In this document: piece after piece, positions 1 to 7,098 of the stretch
Numbering within the stretch: position 1 is the stretch's first letter
Layout of the letters: the number at the start of each line of letters is the position of its first letter
Source: Candidatus Fermentibacterota bacterium
GTDB lineage: Bacteria > JAFGKV01
Assembly: GCA_016928395.1 (NCBI GenBank)
Contig: JAFGKV010000007.1
Coordinates: forward strand, 1-7,320
Length of the DNA stretch: 7,320 nt
Reading direction: 5' to 3'
Notes under the pieces: generated by a model
Databases searched by the model: none
Told to the model about the DNA's origin: nothing
What the model saw: only the letters and a program-made list of their open reading frames with translations
Program-made: the position numbers and the translations under genes

Positions 1-349
1 GGAGTCGCTCCATGACCAGCTCTCCGATCACTTCGGTGGGGATTTCGTGGCTCTGTTGGGCAAAGAGCGCGGCCTCCACACGATCGACGATTTCGTCCAT
101 CTGCTGAGGGCCTATGGGCCGCTTGCCGCAGGCGGTCCGGATGGCGCGGTGGATCTTCTCACGATCATATGGCTCACGGCGGCCGTCCTTCTTGACGACT
201 ACTACATCGGCATCTTCCACATACTCATAGGTTGTGTAGCGACGGGAGCACCCCAGGCATTCTCTTCTTCTCCGCACCGCCGAACCCTCATGCACTGCGC
301 GGCTGTCCACTACCTTGTCTTCGGGATGACCGCAGAAGGGGCATTTCAT
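1..349 (-). CDS. nrdR: Transcriptional repressor NrdR (3' end cut by window edge)
   Basis: NrdR is a cytoplasmic nucleotide-sensing repressor of ribonucleotide reductase operons. The 116 residues visible begin MKCPFCGHPEDK and hold a four-cysteine zinc ribbon (C3, C6, C31, C34) with the hallmark RRRRECLGCSRRYTTYE stretch. An ATP-cone domain follows from about residue 48 (VVKKDGRREPYDREKI, then helices with RAIRTACGKRP). The family is about 150 aa, so roughly 35 C-terminal residues lie beyond base 1. The ATG at 349-347 overlaps the rpiB TGA (348-346) as ATGA, and the upstream ribosome binding site is weak, which suggests translational coupling to rpiB. No NrdR box was recognised in the window. 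Identity is very secure. Confidence 0.97.
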   Translation of the reverse strand, partial: MKCPFCGHPEDKVVDSRAVHEGSAVRRRRECLGCSRRYTTYEYVEDADVVVVKKDGRREPYDREKIHRAIRTACGKRPIGPQQMDEIVDRVEAALFAQQSHEIPTEVIGELVMERL

Positions 350-801
350 GGCGTCATGGTCTCTGAAGACTCAAGATCGTGGATCTGGCCAACTCTTCGC
401 CCGTGGCGACCTCCCTCGAATTCGGTGGATAACCAGACCTCAACGATGCGCCGGGCCATCTCCTCGCCGATGAGCCGCCCACCCAACGCGAGCATGTTGG
501 CATCATTGTGCCGCCGGGAAAGCTCGGCGCTCAGCGGGTCATGGCACAGGGCGCACCGCACGCCTTTAACCTTGTTCGCCACGATCGAGGCGCCGATGCC
601 TGATCCACACACGACGATGGCGCGGGAGATCCCGCCGCTGCCGACGCGCCCGGCCATCCGCGCGATGATGGGGGGGTAGTCCACCGATGAATCCCCGGCG
701 CATCCGCCGTCTTCCACATCGTAGCCGGTGTCTCGCAGCACTTGGGCGAGGAAGTGCTTCAGGGTGAAGCCGCCATGGTCAGAGGCGATACCAATCTTCA
801 T
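346..801 (-). CDS. rpiB: Ribose-5-phosphate isomerase B (RpiB/LacAB family)
   Basis: This 151-aa cytosolic enzyme interconverts ribose-5-phosphate and ribulose-5-phosphate in the non-oxidative pentose phosphate pathway, so it feeds PRPP and nucleotide synthesis. The start MKIGIASDHGG gives the phosphate/sugar-binding D8-H9 pair. C65 in CGSGIG is the expected catalytic base; many family members have CGTGIG, so S67 is a mild variant. H98 in RRHNDAN is the ring-opening histidine. ANMLALGGR and the tail FEGGRHGRRVGQI are family signatures. Length is normal. The ATG at 801-799 overlaps the tsaC stop as ATGA and has a strong GGAGGA at 812-807, five bases upstream, inside the tsaC 3' end. Substrate specificity within RpiB/LacA/LacB/allose isomerases cannot be settled from sequence, but the t6A and nrdR neighbours favour the housekeeping ribose enzyme. 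Confidence 0.95.
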   Translation of the reverse strand: MKIGIASDHGGFTLKHFLAQVLRDTGYDVEDGGCAGDSSVDYPPIIARMAGRVGSGGISRAIVVCGSGIGASIVANKVKGVRCALCHDPLSAELSRRHNDANMLALGGRLIGEEMARRIVEVWLSTEFEGGRHGRRVGQIHDLESSETMTP

Positions 802-1403
802 TCATGTCCTCCGGGTCGGTATCCGCGCGAAGCCTGGCGCACAACACGCGGTGGTTCGGTGGTAAGGTCGATGACTGTGCTGGGCGGCAGCCCTCCGCAC
901 GGGCCTTGAATGACCATGTCCACGGTCTCAAGACGCAGCACCTGCGCAAGAGCGGCCGGAGTGTACGGTGGAGCTAGACCGCTGGCATTGGCGCTGGTTG
1001 CCGTGAGCAGAAGGCGTGAAGCTGCCAGGATGTCGGCTACTGGCTGAAACTGCGTCCAACGGATGCCGACGAGCCCCTCAGGAGACACAAGCCACGGAGG
1101 AGTACCGCTGCACGGGGGAAGCAGCAGTGTCCATGGGCCGGGGAGCAGTGCTTCTGCCCGGACGCGGGCCGTGGGAGACAGCGAGGCCACCCGTGGAACC
1201 GCCCCCAAGTCAGGGACGAATACGGCCGGCGGTTTGCCGGAGTTCCGGCCTTTAATTTGCAGCACCCGCGCCACCACTTCCTGGCGAAGGGCATCGGCCG
1301 CAAGCCCAAAGCAGGTGTCGGTGGGAACCACGACGACTCCGCCACGCCGGAGAATCTCGGATGCTCTCCGGAGTGAATACGGGTCGTGCATTGTCCCGCC
1401 CAC
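798..1403 (-). CDS. tsaC: Threonylcarbamoyl-AMP synthase (YrdC/Sua5-type, short form)
   Basis: TsaC makes threonylcarbamoyl-AMP from threonine, bicarbonate and ATP, the first step of t6A37 tRNA modification. The 201-aa protein is a single YrdC domain: PTDTCFGL at 27-34, the nucleotide/threonine-binding KGR at 51-53 with KP at 57-58, PGPWT at 88-92, GIR at 113-115, TSAN at 136-139 and STVID at 175-179. It lacks the extra C-terminal Sua5 domain of the longer form. I chose the GTG at 1403-1401 because AAGGGGAG (1418-1411) sits 7 bases upstream. An in-frame ATG at 1391-1389 (residue 5) is 12 bases later with poorer spacing. The start lies 3 bases past the tsaD stop. Some genomes carry several YrdC paralogues (YciO, HypF), but pairing with tsaD supports the t6A role. 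Confidence 0.93.
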   Translation of the reverse strand: MGGTMHDPYSLRRASEILRRGGVVVVPTDTCFGLAADALRQEVVARVLQIKGRNSGKPPAVFVPDLGAVPRVASLSPTARVRAEALLPGPWTLLLPPCSGTPPWLVSPEGLVGIRWTQFQPVADILAASRLLLTATSANASGLAPPYTPAALAQVLRLETVDMVIQGPCGGLPPSTVIDLTTEPPRVVRQASRGYRPGGHE

Positions 1404-1406
1404 GCC

Positions 1407-2522
1407 TTATCTCCCCTTGACGGCCTCACAGTGCGGCGCGGCCACCGAGCCGGAACACGGTGCGGTGCTGGAATCGCCCATCCTGGAGAGAACAAGGGGT
1501 TTTGCGTCTGCGCCCTTCCAGCGAGGCATCGATGCAACGGCGGATGCCTCCACCGCGAGGTCGGCAACTGCGCCCCGCCGAAGATCCACTTCCCCCAGAG
1601 CCGCCACCATGACGCCATTGTCGGTACACAGCTCGGGAGGCGGGATGATCAATCGTAACCCTCGGCCTCCGCAGGCCTCGGCCATGGCCTGACGAAGCCG
1701 TCGATTGGCCGCGACGCCTCCGACCATGGCCACCGTTGAGACACCGGCGGCAAAGGCCGCAGTGATGGTCTTGCCGACCAGCACGTCCACCACCGCCTCC
1801 AGGTAGCTGGCAGCCAGATCGGACGTGGCGCCGGCGTCGGCAGGGCTGCCATGGGTGCGCACATACACCGCCAGCGCGGTCTTTAGCCCACTGAAACTGA
1901 AATCGAAGCCCTTTCGGTCTGCGATGGGACGAGGAAACGCCACCGCGGCAGGATTGCCGCGCGAGGCTACCCCATCCAGGGCGGGACCGCCGGGATAGCC
2001 CAAGCCCAGCAAGTGAGCTGCCTTGTCTATCGCTTCGCCCGCCGCATCATCCAGTGTCGACCCCATGACCTGCGCCTCGCCTGGGGCCGTGACACGACAT
2101 AGTAGGGTGTGGCCGCCGGAGGCCAGCAGGGTGACATGGGGCACCTCGACCTCGGGAAACGCCACGAACACGGTATGAAGGTGGGCGCTCAGATGATTCA
2201 CCGGGACAAGGGGGAGACTTCGCGCCATGCAGATCCCTTTGGCTGCGGCAACACCGACCAGTAGTGCACCGATGAGCCCGGGCGATGTCGTGACTGCGAC
2301 GGCATCCAGGTCGCCCCACGTCACACCGGCACGATCCATGGCCTCCCCGATGACAGGGATAAGCAGTCTGCTGTGCTGGCGGGCGGCGATTTCCGGCACC
2401 ACGCCTCCATAGGCCGCATGGAAGGCGTGCTGGCTCGAGACAACGGATGAGGCAACGGCGCCGTCGCAGACCACGGCGCCGCAGGTATCATCGCATGACG
2501 TTTCGATCCCGAGGACTTTCAC
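1407..2522 (-). CDS. tsaD: tRNA N6-adenosine threonylcarbamoyltransferase
   Basis: TsaD (Kae1/YgjD/Gcp family, ASKHA fold) transfers threonylcarbamoyl from TC-AMP to A37 of ANN-decoding tRNAs, in bacteria together with TsaB and TsaE; neither partner is in this window. Signatures in order: GIETSCDDT at 5-13, PEIAARQH at 43-50, NHLSAHLH at 109-116 with metal ligands H110 and H114, ASGGHT at 134-139, DDAAGEAIDKAA at 158-169, GYPGGP at 175-180, FSFSGLKTA at 208-216, GGVAANRRLR at 268-277 and CTDNG at 299-303 with metal ligand D301. At 371 aa it is about 30 residues longer than the usual 335-340; the tail after about residue 338 matches nothing I know. Start is GTG at 2522-2520 behind a near-perfect GGAGGTGA (2539-2532) that contains the stop codon of the preceding gene, so the two are probably translationally coupled. 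Confidence 0.97.
   Translation of the reverse strand: MKVLGIETSCDDTCGAVVCDGAVASSVVSSQHAFHAAYGGVVPEIAARQHSRLLIPVIGEAMDRAGVTWGDLDAVAVTTSPGLIGALLVGVAAAKGICMARSLPLVPVNHLSAHLHTVFVAFPEVEVPHVTLLASGGHTLLCRVTAPGEAQVMGSTLDDAAGEAIDKAAHLLGLGYPGGPALDGVASRGNPAAVAFPRPIADRKGFDFSFSGLKTALAVYVRTHGSPADAGATSDLAASYLEAVVDVLVGKTITAAFAAGVSTVAMVGGVAANRRLRQAMAEACGGRGLRLIIPPPELCTDNGVMVAALGEVDLRRGAVADLAVEASAVASMPRWKGADAKPLVLSRMGDSSTAPCSGSVAAPHCEAVKGR
1411..1418 (-). promoter_or_regulatory. Ribosome binding site of tsaC
   Basis: AAGGGGAG on the minus strand, within the last codons of tsaD and 7 bases before the GTG at 1403. It favours GTG over the ATG at 1391, which would be 19 bases away. Confidence 0.75.
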
Positions 2523-2530
2523 TCCGCGTT

Positions 2531-2540
2531 CTCACCTCCC
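2531..2540 (-). promoter_or_regulatory. Ribosome binding site of tsaD, overlapping the upstream stop codon
   Basis: GGGAGGTGAG on the minus strand is a near-perfect anti-16S complement 8-9 bases before the GTG start. The TGA inside it (2534-2532) is the stop codon of the IlvD/Edd-like gene. Ribosomes terminating there sit on the initiation site, the arrangement expected for translational coupling. Confidence 0.88.
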
Positions 2541-4622
2541 CAGGAAAGGAGCGGCGCCGCTGGTCGTCGGGGTCACGGAGTTCAGCAGGCTTCGCAGGGA
2601 CAGCGGCAGGGCGAGGCGGTCTTCCGCCATCTTCCGCTGGCGCATTGCACCCAACGGTCTGCGTTGAATCTCATTCTTTGACAGCAGTACGATCTTGCCA
2701 AGGTCGAAGGAACTATCCTTGTCCAAGGCATTCATGATGCCATTCTCGAAGTCCACATAGACCAGTTCGCCGGTCTCGATGGCGGCGATGCCGCCGCCTT
2801 CCATGCCCTCGGGAGCGCAATGCCCGATGAAGGGGCCCCAACTGGTGCCAGCGATCCGGCCGTCGGTGCACAGCACCGTGATGTTTCTCAAGCGTACATC
2901 CCGCTGGAGGTACTCCGCAGGATAGTAGATCTGGCGCATGCCTCCGGCAACAGGCCCCTCCCCGGCAATCACCACGAAAATCCGCATCAACTCGTCGTCG
3001 ACGAGCCGGTCGAACAGCTCATCCTTCTTCAGTTTTGCGTAGAGTTTGTAGTCATCCAGGCGATCAGGATAGTTCAGGGAGAAAAGGCTCAGAAGATCGT
3101 CCATGGTGACGATCGTCTTCACCTTGTCGAGGATCTCGCTACTCTCGAAGAGGTCGGCCACCGCGTCCTCCTCGTTGTAGTAGAAGACCGCCAGATATGT
3201 CTTCTTGTCAAAACGATCAAGTTCCTCAGGGGACAGGCTGCTGATGCGGGTGACCGAACTCTCACAGAAGTTCCCGCGTAACTCGACTATGCCGCTGCAT
3301 TCCTTTGCCGGCGAGGATTGCACAAAGACGCCATCGGGCTCCTGGGCGGCGGACAACCTATCATTCCACGGTACGTCCACCGTCGGGCCGTCCTTCACCT
3401 GGGTTGCATCGACCTGCCGAAGCGCCCGTAGGACCGTGTCGAATCCTCCGGCACGCTTGGCGGCGATCTCTGCGGCCCAGCCATGAAGGGTCGGCTCGCC
3501 ATCCGGGGGAAACATTGCAAAGGAGGGAGTCTCGGAACAGATGGCCGAGATGAACGTGGTGGTGGGCTGCCGCTCTTCCGGGAGATCCATGAAGCTGGCC
3601 AGGTACGAGAAATGGAGGGACCAGTCTGTGGATCCGTTGAGCGTGGACCAGAGCCGGATGGCATTGTCAAGGTTTGCCTCCACCAGTTCCGCTGCGCCTA
3701 GTTGCGCCTTGCGGGTGCTGACCGCCTTGAGGAACGGCCCCAGGGCGTGGGAAACCGCGGCGTCATTGGGCTGCTTGACGAGGAGTTCATATCCCGAGGG
3801 AATCAACCCGAGACCGTACAGGACCACCCGGTTCGTTCCGGTGTTCTCCATGCAGGCCGGCGCCGTGGGCCGGTCGCACAGGGCCTGCGCCAGGGAAAGC
3901 AGCATCTCGTCCCGCTCGTTTCTGGACATCAGCTTGCGGGCATTGAGCTGTTCGAGAAGTTTGTAGAACATCGGATAGACGTTGGTTCGAAGTCGTTGGG
4001 CCATGAGGGCGTCGAGTTGGCTGCGCAGCAGCGGACGATCAGTCTTGTCGCGGATTACCCTGAGCCGGTCACGGATCTCCTTTGGTATGGGTCTCTCAGC
4101 GACCAGCGGCGGCGGGAGAAACAGGGCGGAAAACGGAGGCCGTTTGGCGTTCTTGCGCTGTGTGTCTATCTCGACATAGGCGCCCAACTCTGCTACGGGC
4201 CGCATTTCTCCGGAGGTAATGGAGATCGCCGCATCGAAACCGTAGGCCTCTATCTGAGCAACGACCAGAGCGGTCGTGATGTTTCTGCTGACCAGGTCAT
4301 AACGCATGCCGGTGTGGCCGATGGCGACACCCTGAGGCACGGTCGGCAACATCACGGAGAACGGGAGACAGCCCTTTTCCCATACGGCGCATGCCGCCGC
4401 CCGGGCCATGGCACAGTCCAGAACGTGTGCCGGATCGTCAGGCGTACCGGTTACCACCGCGATACGGTTCCTGCCCTTCATCAGCTTGCCGATGATGTCT
4501 TCCCGGGTGGCTATGACTTTGGCGTTCCGTAAGGTGTACTCCACGCTCGCTACCAACGAAGGGAGGGGCAGAGGGTGTGCGATGAGTGGGTCTTTTGAGG
4601 TGAGAGGGTGCATTCGAACCAT
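2532..4622 (-). CDS. Divergent IlvD/Edd-family dehydratase-like protein, probable pseudoenzyme
   Basis: About 696 aa. The IlvD/Edd fold is visible throughout: QGVAIGHTGMRYDLVSR (97-113), NGSTD (329-333), LRGNF (448-452), GMRQI (561-565), TDGRIAGTSWGPFIGH (586-601) and GGGIA near 609, followed by a typical C-terminal barrel. Family members dehydrate dihydroxy-acids or sugar acids with an Fe-S cluster and Mg. Aligned by eye, Fe-S Cys1 is A65 (DPAH for TPCN), the Mg Asp is Q97, Cys2 of CDK is S137, the carbamylated Lys is E139, and the Ser of GRFSG is A591. Only Cys3 (C257) may remain. It exceeds IlvD (about 560 aa) through inserts near 170-215 and 500-547. The ATG at 4622 follows GAGGAG (4637-4632) by 9 nt; a TTG at 4697 would add 25 residues but has no ribosome binding site. 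It heads the tsaD operon. Ordinary dehydratase activity is unlikely; the function is unknown. Confidence 0.8.
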   Translation of the reverse strand: MVRMHPLTSKDPLIAHPLPLPSLVASVEYTLRNAKVIATREDIIGKLMKGRNRIAVVTGTPDDPAHVLDCAMARAAACAVWEKGCLPFSVMLPTVPQGVAIGHTGMRYDLVSRNITTALVVAQIEAYGFDAAISITSGEMRPVAELGAYVEIDTQRKNAKRPPFSALFLPPPLVAERPIPKEIRDRLRVIRDKTDRPLLRSQLDALMAQRLRTNVYPMFYKLLEQLNARKLMSRNERDEMLLSLAQALCDRPTAPACMENTGTNRVVLYGLGLIPSGYELLVKQPNDAAVSHALGPFLKAVSTRKAQLGAAELVEANLDNAIRLWSTLNGSTDWSLHFSYLASFMDLPEERQPTTTFISAICSETPSFAMFPPDGEPTLHGWAAEIAAKRAGGFDTVLRALRQVDATQVKDGPTVDVPWNDRLSAAQEPDGVFVQSSPAKECSGIVELRGNFCESSVTRISSLSPEELDRFDKKTYLAVFYYNEEDAVADLFESSEILDKVKTIVTMDDLLSLFSLNYPDRLDDYKLYAKLKKDELFDRLVDDELMRIFVVIAGEGPVAGGMRQIYYPAEYLQRDVRLRNITVLCTDGRIAGTSWGPFIGHCAPEGMEGGGIAAIETGELVYVDFENGIMNALDKDSSFDLGKIVLLSKNEIQRRPLGAMRQRKMAEDRLALPLSLRSLLNSVTPTTSGAAPFLGR

Positions 4623-4630
4623 CAGGCGTG

Positions 4631-4638
4631 TCTCCTCA
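4631..4638 (-). promoter_or_regulatory. Ribosome binding site of the IlvD/Edd-like gene
   Basis: TGAGGAGA on the minus strand, 8-9 bases before the ATG at 4622. No comparable site precedes the TTG at 4697, so this supports the shorter 696-aa protein. A further in-frame ATG at 4613 is too far from the site to be preferred. Confidence 0.75.
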
Positions 4639-5142: not shown

Positions 5143-7038
5143 CTATTGGACAACCTCGAAGTCGGCATCAACCGGCCCGGAGTCTTCGGGGGGAGCGGTA
5201 TCGGGGCCAGGCCCGTCCGGTGAACCCTGACTCTGACCCGCGGCGGCTTCGTACATCTTACCCGCGGCCTGATGCCACGCCTTGAGGAGGTCATCGGTGC
5301 CTGTCTTGATCCGCGCCTCATCATCGCTCTTGATGGCATCCTTGAGGCTGGCTACGAGGCGTTCCACCTCGCCCTTTGTTGCCGGATCCAGTTTGTCCTT
5401 CATCTCCTCCAGGTTCTTCTCGGTCTGATACACCAGTTGATCCGCACGGTTACGCGCCTCGACCAACTGGCGCTTGGACTTGTCTTCGTCGGCATGCTGC
5501 TCGGCATCCCGTACGAACTTCTTGATCTCCTCATCCGTGAGCCCGGAAGACGCCTGGATCCGGATGGACTGTTCCTTGCCGGTGGCCTTGTCCTTGGCGG
5601 AGACCTTGAGTATGCCGTTGGCATCAAGATCGAAGGTGACCTCGATCTGCGGCATACCCCTGGGAGCGGGGGGCAAGCCGGTGAGCTGGAAACGGCCGAT
5701 GCTCTTGTTGTAAATCGCCATCTCGCGCTCACCCTGAAGCACGTGGATTTCCACTGTGTTCTGGTTGTCCTCCGCAGTGCTGAACACTTCGCTCTTGCGT
5801 GTCGGGATGGTCGTATTCCGCTCGATGAGCTTCGTGAATACCCCACCCAGGGTTTCGATGCCCAATGACAGGGGAGTCACATCCAACAGAAGGATGTCCT
5901 TCACTTCGCCTGCCAGCACGCCGCCCTGAATGGCGGCGCCGACAGCCACCACCTCATCAGGGTTCACACCCTTGTGGGGTGCGCGGCCGAACAACTCCTC
6001 GACCACCTGCTGCACCCGCGGCATCCTGGTCTGCCCTCCCACGAGGATGATCTCGTCGACATCCTGGGCGCTGAGACCTGCGTCCTGGAGCGCACGTTTG
6101 CAGGGGCCAACGCTGCGCTGCACCAGATCCTCGACGAGTTGCTCGAGCTTGGCCCTGCTCAGGGTCATCCGAAGGTGCTTGGGGCCGCTGGCATCGGCGG
6201 TCACGAACGGCAGGTTGATCTCCGTCTCCAGTGTCGAGGACAGTTCACACTTCGCCTTCTCCGCCGCCTCCTTGAGACGTTGGAGCGCCATGGGATCCTT
6301 CCGGAGGTCGATCCCCTGTTCCTTCTTGAACTCGTCGGCGATCCAGTCCATCACCTGCTGGTCGAAATCGTCGCCGCCCAGGTGGGTGTCACCATTGGTG
6401 GACTTCACCTCGAAGACACCGTCGCCGATTTCGAGGATAGAAATGTCAAACGTCCCGCCGCCCAGATCGTAGACTGCGATCTTCTCATCCTTCTTCTTGT
6501 CAAGACCGTAGGCCAAAGACGCGGCGGTGGGCTCGTTTATGATGCGCTTGACATTGAGGCCGGCGATCTTACCCGCATCCTTCGTGGCCTGTCGCTGCGA
6601 GTCATTGAAATACGCAGGCACGGTGACGACGGCGTCGGTCACCGTCTCACCGAGATAGTCCTCCGCCGTCTGCCGCATCTTCTGGAGGATCATCGCCGAA
6701 ATCTCAGGAGGCGAGTACTCCTTGTTACCGATCTTGACCCGCGCGTCATCATTGGGCCCCGTCACCACAGCAAATGGCACCTCCGAGGTCTCGGCCTTCA
6801 CTTCCTGATACTTCCGGCCCATGAACCGCTTGATGGAGAATACCGTTCTGTCGGGGTTGGTGATCGCCTGGCGCTTCGCCGCCAAACCAACCACCCGTTC
6901 CCCATCCTTGGTGAACGCCACCACCGACGGGGTCGTACGACCACCTTCGGCATTGGCAATCACCACGGGCTTGCCGCCTTCCATGACGGCGACGCACGAG
7001 TTCGTCGTGCCGAGATCAATACCGATGGTTTTGCTCAT
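5143..7038 (-). CDS. dnaK: Molecular chaperone DnaK (Hsp70)
   Basis: This 631-aa cytosolic ATP-driven chaperone binds exposed hydrophobic peptides with DnaJ and GrpE as partners. The nucleotide-binding domain carries IDLGTTNS (7-14), [13 protein letters not shown] (168-180), [12 protein letters not shown] (189-200) and LVGGQTRMP (332-340). The linker [12 protein letters not shown] starts near 379, then come the substrate-binding beta domain ([20 protein letters not shown] near 458-477) and the helical lid. The C-terminus has a Gly/Pro/Ser-rich tail and ends VDADFEVVQ, like the conserved EEVD-type tail. The segment around residues 65-95 ([13 protein letters not shown] onward) is the insert found in diderm DnaK and absent from Firmicutes. 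Start is ATG at 7038-7036 because GGAGGAG (7051-7045) lies 6 bases upstream; a TTG at 7053 would overlap that site. No grpE, dnaJ or hrcA flanks it within the window. Confidence 0.98.
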
Positions 7039-7044
7039 GACATA

Positions 7045-7051
7045 CTCCTCC
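7045..7051 (-). promoter_or_regulatory. Ribosome binding site of dnaK
   Basis: GGAGGAG on the minus strand, 6 bases before the ATG at 7038. It decides between this ATG and the in-frame TTG at 7053, which would place the ribosome binding site inside the coding region. Confidence 0.9.
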
Positions 7052-7098
7052 AATGATGACCACCACTGCGTGATGGCCCTTTCGTAGGCTTCGTTACT

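Follow-up and report, generated by a model that had tools for sequence, protein, structure and literature searches.

An IlvD/Edd-fold protein without an iron-sulfur site, kept intact in a candidate bacterial phylum

The window considered here, 7,320 nucleotides from a draft genome of Candidatus Fermentibacterota, carries a series of genes that are all read from the minus strand. The gene of interest occupies 2532..4622 (ATG at 4620-4622, stop codon at 2532-2534) and encodes a 696-aa protein of the IlvD/Edd fold. A ribosome binding site, AGGAG, lies at 4632..4636, 9 nt before the ATG, and this motif is common to all three genomes discussed below. The first-pass annotation of the window had described an intact frame of about 2.1 kb behind a good ribosome binding site, and both features hold. 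Downstream, tsaD (1407..2522) follows 9 nt after the stop codon and is succeeded by tsaC/sua5, with its YrdC domain (798..1403), by rpiB (346..801) and by nrdR (2..349), which is cut by the window end. The upstream neighbour is dnaK (5143..7053). A search for promoters and terminators upstream of the IlvD-like gene gave no match, and an Rfam search found nothing. The same genome encodes another DnaK-type protein (G000:C199:18165-20000), with 60% identity to that of the window, and a similarly divergent copy is present in each of the other two genomes.

Three genomes of the phylum were examined, namely that of the window (G000), one of the same genus (G001) and one of another genus (G002), with completeness of 94, 82 and 98%. 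All are drafts, and two of them are metagenome-assembled. A full-length, syntenic version of the protein is found in 3/3, at 67-84% identity (84% within the genus, 67% with the other genus), and these three sequences, the window protein and its two orthologues, are referred to below as the window family. The gene order dnaK - IlvD-like gene - tsaD - tsaC - rpiB - nrdR is identical in G000 and G002; in G001 the order runs from the IlvD-like gene through tsaD and tsaC to rpiB, nrdR not being seen in that contig. In both G000 and G001 the IlvD-like gene and tsaD are 9 nt apart. Across window positions 2-4622 (minus strand), the t6A genes, a pentose isomerase gene and the gene for a ribonucleotide reductase regulator stay together with the IlvD-like gene in a tight row. 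The upstream flank in G001 (L036:1-515) is AT-rich and unlike the dnaK side of the other two genomes, which reflects either a rearrangement or an assembly join. No member of the family was found in 12 genomes of the two phyla nearest by DnaK, in viral contigs, or among 72,556 plasmids, and a single scan of 84,980 genomes with narrow patterns recovered just the two orthologues.

The window protein is the sole IlvD/Edd protein found in its genome, and no other was found in the three genomes of the phylum. The same three genomes gave no match to ketol-acid reductoisomerase (KARI, IlvC) and none to acetolactate synthase (best score 19.6 bits, cut-off 538), each of which was detected in 14/14 control genomes; read from drafts, these absences are strong, not absolute. 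With no further IlvD/Edd protein, no IlvC and no acetolactate synthase, it follows that the window protein does not serve valine/isoleucine synthesis as its DHAD, and the notion of a sole branched-chain DHAD with altered ligands was rejected on the missing KARI and acetolactate synthase. All three genomes, without KARI, acetolactate synthase or a canonical DHAD, have the appearance of branched-chain amino acid auxotrophs.

Assignment to the IlvD/Edd family comes from both of its Pfam domains. A profile search of the kind proposed in the first-pass annotation gave 56.8 bits for PF00920 (ILVD_EDD_N, cut-off 27) and 73.4 bits for PF24877 (ILV_EDD_C, cut-off 27.7), and the two orthologues likewise exceed the curated cut-offs of both models. 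The motifs GH.GM, GSTD, LRGN, TDGR and GH..PE are present and in the right order, as had been claimed at the outset. Among the NCBIfam models, the window protein falls far under every subfamily and equivalog cut-off, and its sequence relatives in the PDB are DHADs, sugar-acid dehydratases and 6-phosphogluconate dehydratase only. Two AlphaFold models reached pLDDT values of 35 and 46, too poor for a view of the active site. When the weak model was submitted to Foldseek, 22/22 matches at E < 0.001 were IlvD/EDD, with TM-scores of only about 0.25, a result that is partly circular in that DHADs were present in the alignment behind the second model.

When the C-terminal half was used in a domain-wide search, a single distant protein matched strongly; it comes from another phylum and has 715 aa (33% identity, E 5e-34). 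This protein represents a long subfamily (about 715-720 aa) present in six genomes of one family of that phylum (loci L054-L060); the loci of the subfamily also include L051:2820-4964 (minus strand) and L064:7965-10127. A member of 720 aa is borne on a plasmid of Thalassospira marina (WP_101286656.1), where it is annotated as DHAD and has an enolase-superfamily gene and a TRAP transporter in its vicinity. In the plasmid search 239 records matched the long relative, and the window protein matched one, that of the active Thalassospira relative. The long member tested is far under all NCBIfam cut-offs; the subfamily probably consists of sugar-acid dehydratases.

Two helical insertions tie the window family to these proteins and are missing from the other IlvD/Edd sequences in the alignment. 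The first, at residues 176-250 (3873..4097), is larger than the canonical segment; the second, at residues 500-548 (2979..3125), shows 95% pairwise identity in the window family versus 51% in the active long subfamily. In the tree, the window family and the long members form one side with 100/100 support, and each of the two groups is itself fully supported. The stem branch of the window family measures 2.63 changes per site, set against differences of only 0.1-0.3 within the family. Because the base of this tree joins long branches, its topology was given no more weight than the insertions held in common and the direct match between sequences. The window family thus forms its own branch, with the active long subfamily as sister group, and the two shared insertions and the joint clade show that both descend from an ancestor of that architecture.

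What the catalytic positions do in active members is known from D-xylonate dehydratase. There, Mg is held by Glu92, Asp129, the carbamylated Lys130 and Glu463; Cys128 and Cys200 bind the cluster, joined in one subfamily by Cys60 and in another, probably, by the cysteine of the CDG motif; and Ser490 is the base, with Arg488 nearby and Thr206 near the Mg (PMC5770437). The Cys-Asp-Lys motif, the Mg ligands, the third cysteine and the catalytic serine are stated to be fully conserved across IlvD/Edd (PMC5770437). These positions were compared in an alignment of the three window-family proteins with 32 further IlvD/Edd sequences, six of them long active relatives and 26 from elsewhere in the family; "active" here means that the catalytic residues are intact, as judged by sequence alone.

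At the Mg-ligand Asp of the CDG/DDG motif, the window family has Gln97 (4332..4334) in 3/3 members, where 32/32 active sequences have Asp. The Cys-Asp-Lys motif, which supplies a cluster cysteine, a Mg-ligand Asp and the carbamylated lysine (PMC5770437), is replaced by Gly138-Glu139-Met140 (4203..4211); the glycine is found in 3/3 and position 140 is Met, Ile or Leu, versus Cys and Lys in 32/32 active sequences. Pro255 (3858..3860) takes the place of the third cluster cysteine, again in 3/3 versus 32/32. In the alignment, Asn260 (3843..3845) replaces a Thr that is invariant in 32/32 active sequences and is probably the Thr near Mg (compare Thr206 of D-xylonate dehydratase, PMC5770437), and Asp333 (3624..3626) replaces the Asn of GGSTN. 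The Mg ligands thus read Gln97 for Asp/Glu, Glu139 for Asp, so that a carboxylate stays, and Glu555 (2958..2960), which is unchanged. The position of the catalytic serine is Ala591 (2850..2852) in G000 and G001 and Ser in G002. Asp587, Arg589, Ser594, His601 and Glu605 are unchanged as well.

The first-pass annotation had proposed that nearly all catalytic and metal-binding residues were lost. The replacement of the ligands stands in four MAFFT modes, as does the reading of Q97, but parts of the residue map have to be redrawn. The second cysteine and the carbamylated lysine had been assigned to S137 and E139, each off by one; the true positions are G138 and M140, and E139 replaces the intervening Asp. 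C257 had been offered as a possible surviving third cysteine, but it lies two residues beyond P255, and G002 has Phe there, which leaves the family without a single cluster cysteine. The supposed loss of the first cysteine at A65 is uninformative from the alignment and says little, because Ala is also found there in 6/6 active long relatives and Gly in 22/26 canonical sequences. As for conservation among homologues, Q97 and E139 are fixed in the family, but the proposed serine-to-alanine change at 591 is not.

Among the 32 active sequences 53 columns are near-invariant, and of these the window family retains 32 in full and 6 in part, with 15 lost. Of the cofactor or catalytic columns, 7/7 are lost or partly lost, versus 14/46 other near-invariant columns (Fisher p = 0.0008), so the replacement of these positions is not chance. 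In the window family, then, neither the carbamylated lysine nor any cluster-binding cysteine is left, and the protein has been kept intact and syntenic in its phylum.

Selection on the gene has been strong. By the Nei-Gojobori method dN/dS is 0.066 for G000-G001 and 0.094 for G001-G002, with synonymous sites near saturation; under a GY codon model the value is about 0.03 for the whole gene and drops to 0.008 over residues 441-696, set beside 0.02-0.03 for TsaD of the same genomes. The family is under purifying selection of housekeeping strength, and the first-pass annotation's refuting case, a single degenerate copy whose dN/dS is near 1, was not found, since the two orthologues share the loss. 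Constraint is greatest in the C-terminal half, residues 441-696 (2535..3302), where 85% of columns are invariant versus 48% in the active long subfamily. At residues 40-175 the relation is reversed, with 50% invariant columns in the window family and 74% in the active long proteins, and this flip between regions is significant within each group (Fisher p = 6e-13 and 1e-6). Between G000 and G002, the C-terminal 253 residues are 87% identical, compared with 80% for DnaK, 63% for TsaD and 48% for Sua5. A long stem followed by slow change, together with constraint that has moved out of the cofactor domain and into the C-terminal half, points to repurposing, as does the finding that every catalytic column is hit while 32/46 other near-invariant columns stay. 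Stripped of its cluster ligands yet conserved as strictly as housekeeping genes are, the protein has almost certainly taken up a new function. The first-pass annotation's suggestion of a selected role other than Fe-S dehydration is supported by the shared loss, the purifying selection and the absence of the branched-chain enzymes tested.

The explanation that we favor, and put at about an even chance, is that this is a repurposed, Fe-S-free protein of the IlvD/Edd fold, most likely a binding or scaffold pseudoenzyme. Judging from the family mechanism, the window family should be unable to carry out Fe-S Lewis-acid dehydration; that it works by binding is less sure. In solved relatives the active site lies at the dimer interface, with the C-terminus contributing (PMC5770437, PMC11316719). 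The conserved C-terminal half and the helical insertion could accordingly be pictured as a surface for oligomerisation and partner docking, and the old inter-domain pocket (Q97, E139, D333, E555, D587 and R589, all kept in the family) might bind a carboxylate-type ligand or a metal. Binding there without turnover would suit a sensor or scaffold role. That said, the carboxylates E139 and E555 and the arginine R589 are still near the former Mg site, and G002 keeps a serine at the catalytic position, both of which speak against a non-catalytic reading; metal binding and some chemistry are possible on the basis of these residues.

The strongest rival to the binding or scaffold reading is metal-only chemistry at Q97, E139 and E555. 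The protein would still be an enzyme with a rebuilt site, using neither an Fe-S cluster nor a carbamylated lysine; a divalent metal would be held by those three residues, and R589, H601 and E605 would act on a carboxylate substrate. Carboxylates do occupy two of the four Mg-ligand positions (E139 and E555), a third is an invariant glutamine, D587, R589, S594, H601 and E605 are kept, and most of the replaced pocket residues are fixed in the family. This fixation, however, barely rises above the background of the N-terminal domain, which is the less conserved part of the protein, an unusual state for a domain with a working site. Moreover, position 140 is variously Met, Ile or Leu, and the serine proposed as base is alanine in two of the three members. 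We regard this rival as somewhat unlikely. Slightly wider in scope, and advanced only tentatively, is the proposal that a phylum-restricted version of the fold dropped the Fe-S cluster and the carbamylated lysine and gained a new activity, be it metal-only chemistry or a structural or regulatory part tied to tsaD-tsaC.

The location of the gene bears on the second half of that proposal. The IlvD-like gene heads a tight, conserved row with tsaD and tsaC and is therefore probably co-expressed with these tRNA t6A genes. The order shared by G000 and G002 from dnaK to nrdR and kept in G001 from this gene to rpiB, along with the 9-nt gap to tsaD in G000 and G001, would suit a partner or regulator of the tRNA-modification proteins TsaD and TsaC encoded directly downstream. 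Conserved operons often join unrelated housekeeping genes, however, and the row may reflect shared housekeeping expression only; the active long relatives adjoin sugar-acid or kinase genes instead. TsaB was found in all three genomes, so that no t6A part is obviously missing and a stand-in for TsaB can be discarded. A partner or regulator of this kind is clearly unlikely, and a functional tie to the t6A genes is a lead only.

That the protein is a normal IlvD/Edd dehydratase, with its active site obscured only by a faulty alignment, is very improbable. It does pass the Pfam family models with TDGR and GH..PE intact, but the residue register is identical in the four MAFFT modes, against both canonical sequences and long active relatives, and a HMMER alignment to the solved DHAD 9ix7 agrees with it at Q97 and P255. 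Furthermore, none of the three members has a Cys, Lys or Asp at positions 95-98 or 136-141. A pseudogene in decay or an assembly artefact, which the near-complete loss of catalytic residues and the draft state of the assemblies might suggest, is exceedingly improbable and already refuted by intact 696-aa frames of equal length, in the same gene order, in three separate genomes with dN/dS far below 1.

The window family breaks nearly all of the residues described as conserved family-wide (PMC5770437), yet selection at housekeeping level keeps it, in a phylum in which no enzyme of branched-chain biosynthesis was found. It also cautions that similarity is no safe ground for labelling such genes DHAD. 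The family shares with DHAD IlvD (TIGR00110, NF002068) the fold family, the motif order and the positions of E555, D587 and R589, but it lacks the cluster cysteines and the carbamylated lysine, the window protein scores 104.7 bits against the TIGR00110 cut-off of 618, and KARI and acetolactate synthase are missing from its genomes. Edd 6-phosphogluconate dehydratase (TIGR01196; 37.7 bits against 708) and YjhG/YagF D-xylonate dehydratase (TIGR03432; 45.5 bits against 808) belong to the same superfamily, and again the cofactor ligands are absent from the window protein. With the solved sugar-acid dehydratases, Caulobacter crescentus D-xylonate dehydratase (5OYN) and Rhizobium leguminosarum L-arabinonate dehydratase (5J84), the two-domain plan is shared by homology. 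Those enzymes, however, have three cysteines holding a [2Fe-2S] cluster, a Mg ion coordinated by Glu, Asp, carbamylated Lys and Glu, and a serine as base (PMC5770437); of the four Mg ligands, one is unchanged in the window protein and one is a conservative Asp-to-Glu change.

Like bacterial pseudoenzymes in general, the window family has a conserved catalytic fold without the catalytic residues and is under selection, but none was found described for IlvD/Edd, and a search of the open-access literature yielded no paper on a member of this kind. The first-pass annotation's statement that no described family matches has to be qualified, since a sister group with an intact site exists in the long subfamily. 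The two groups share their length, both insertions, 26-33% identity over long stretches, the joint clade and Ala at the "Cys1" position. They differ in that the long subfamily has CDG, GCDK, GGIC, GGSTN or close variants, and SDGR/TDGR-x-Ser intact in 6/6 full-length sequences, a more constrained N-terminal domain and, from gene orders read in part, several copies adjoining FGGY sugar kinases. Together, the window family and its active sister subfamily make a before-and-after pair for how an Fe-S enzyme becomes something else.
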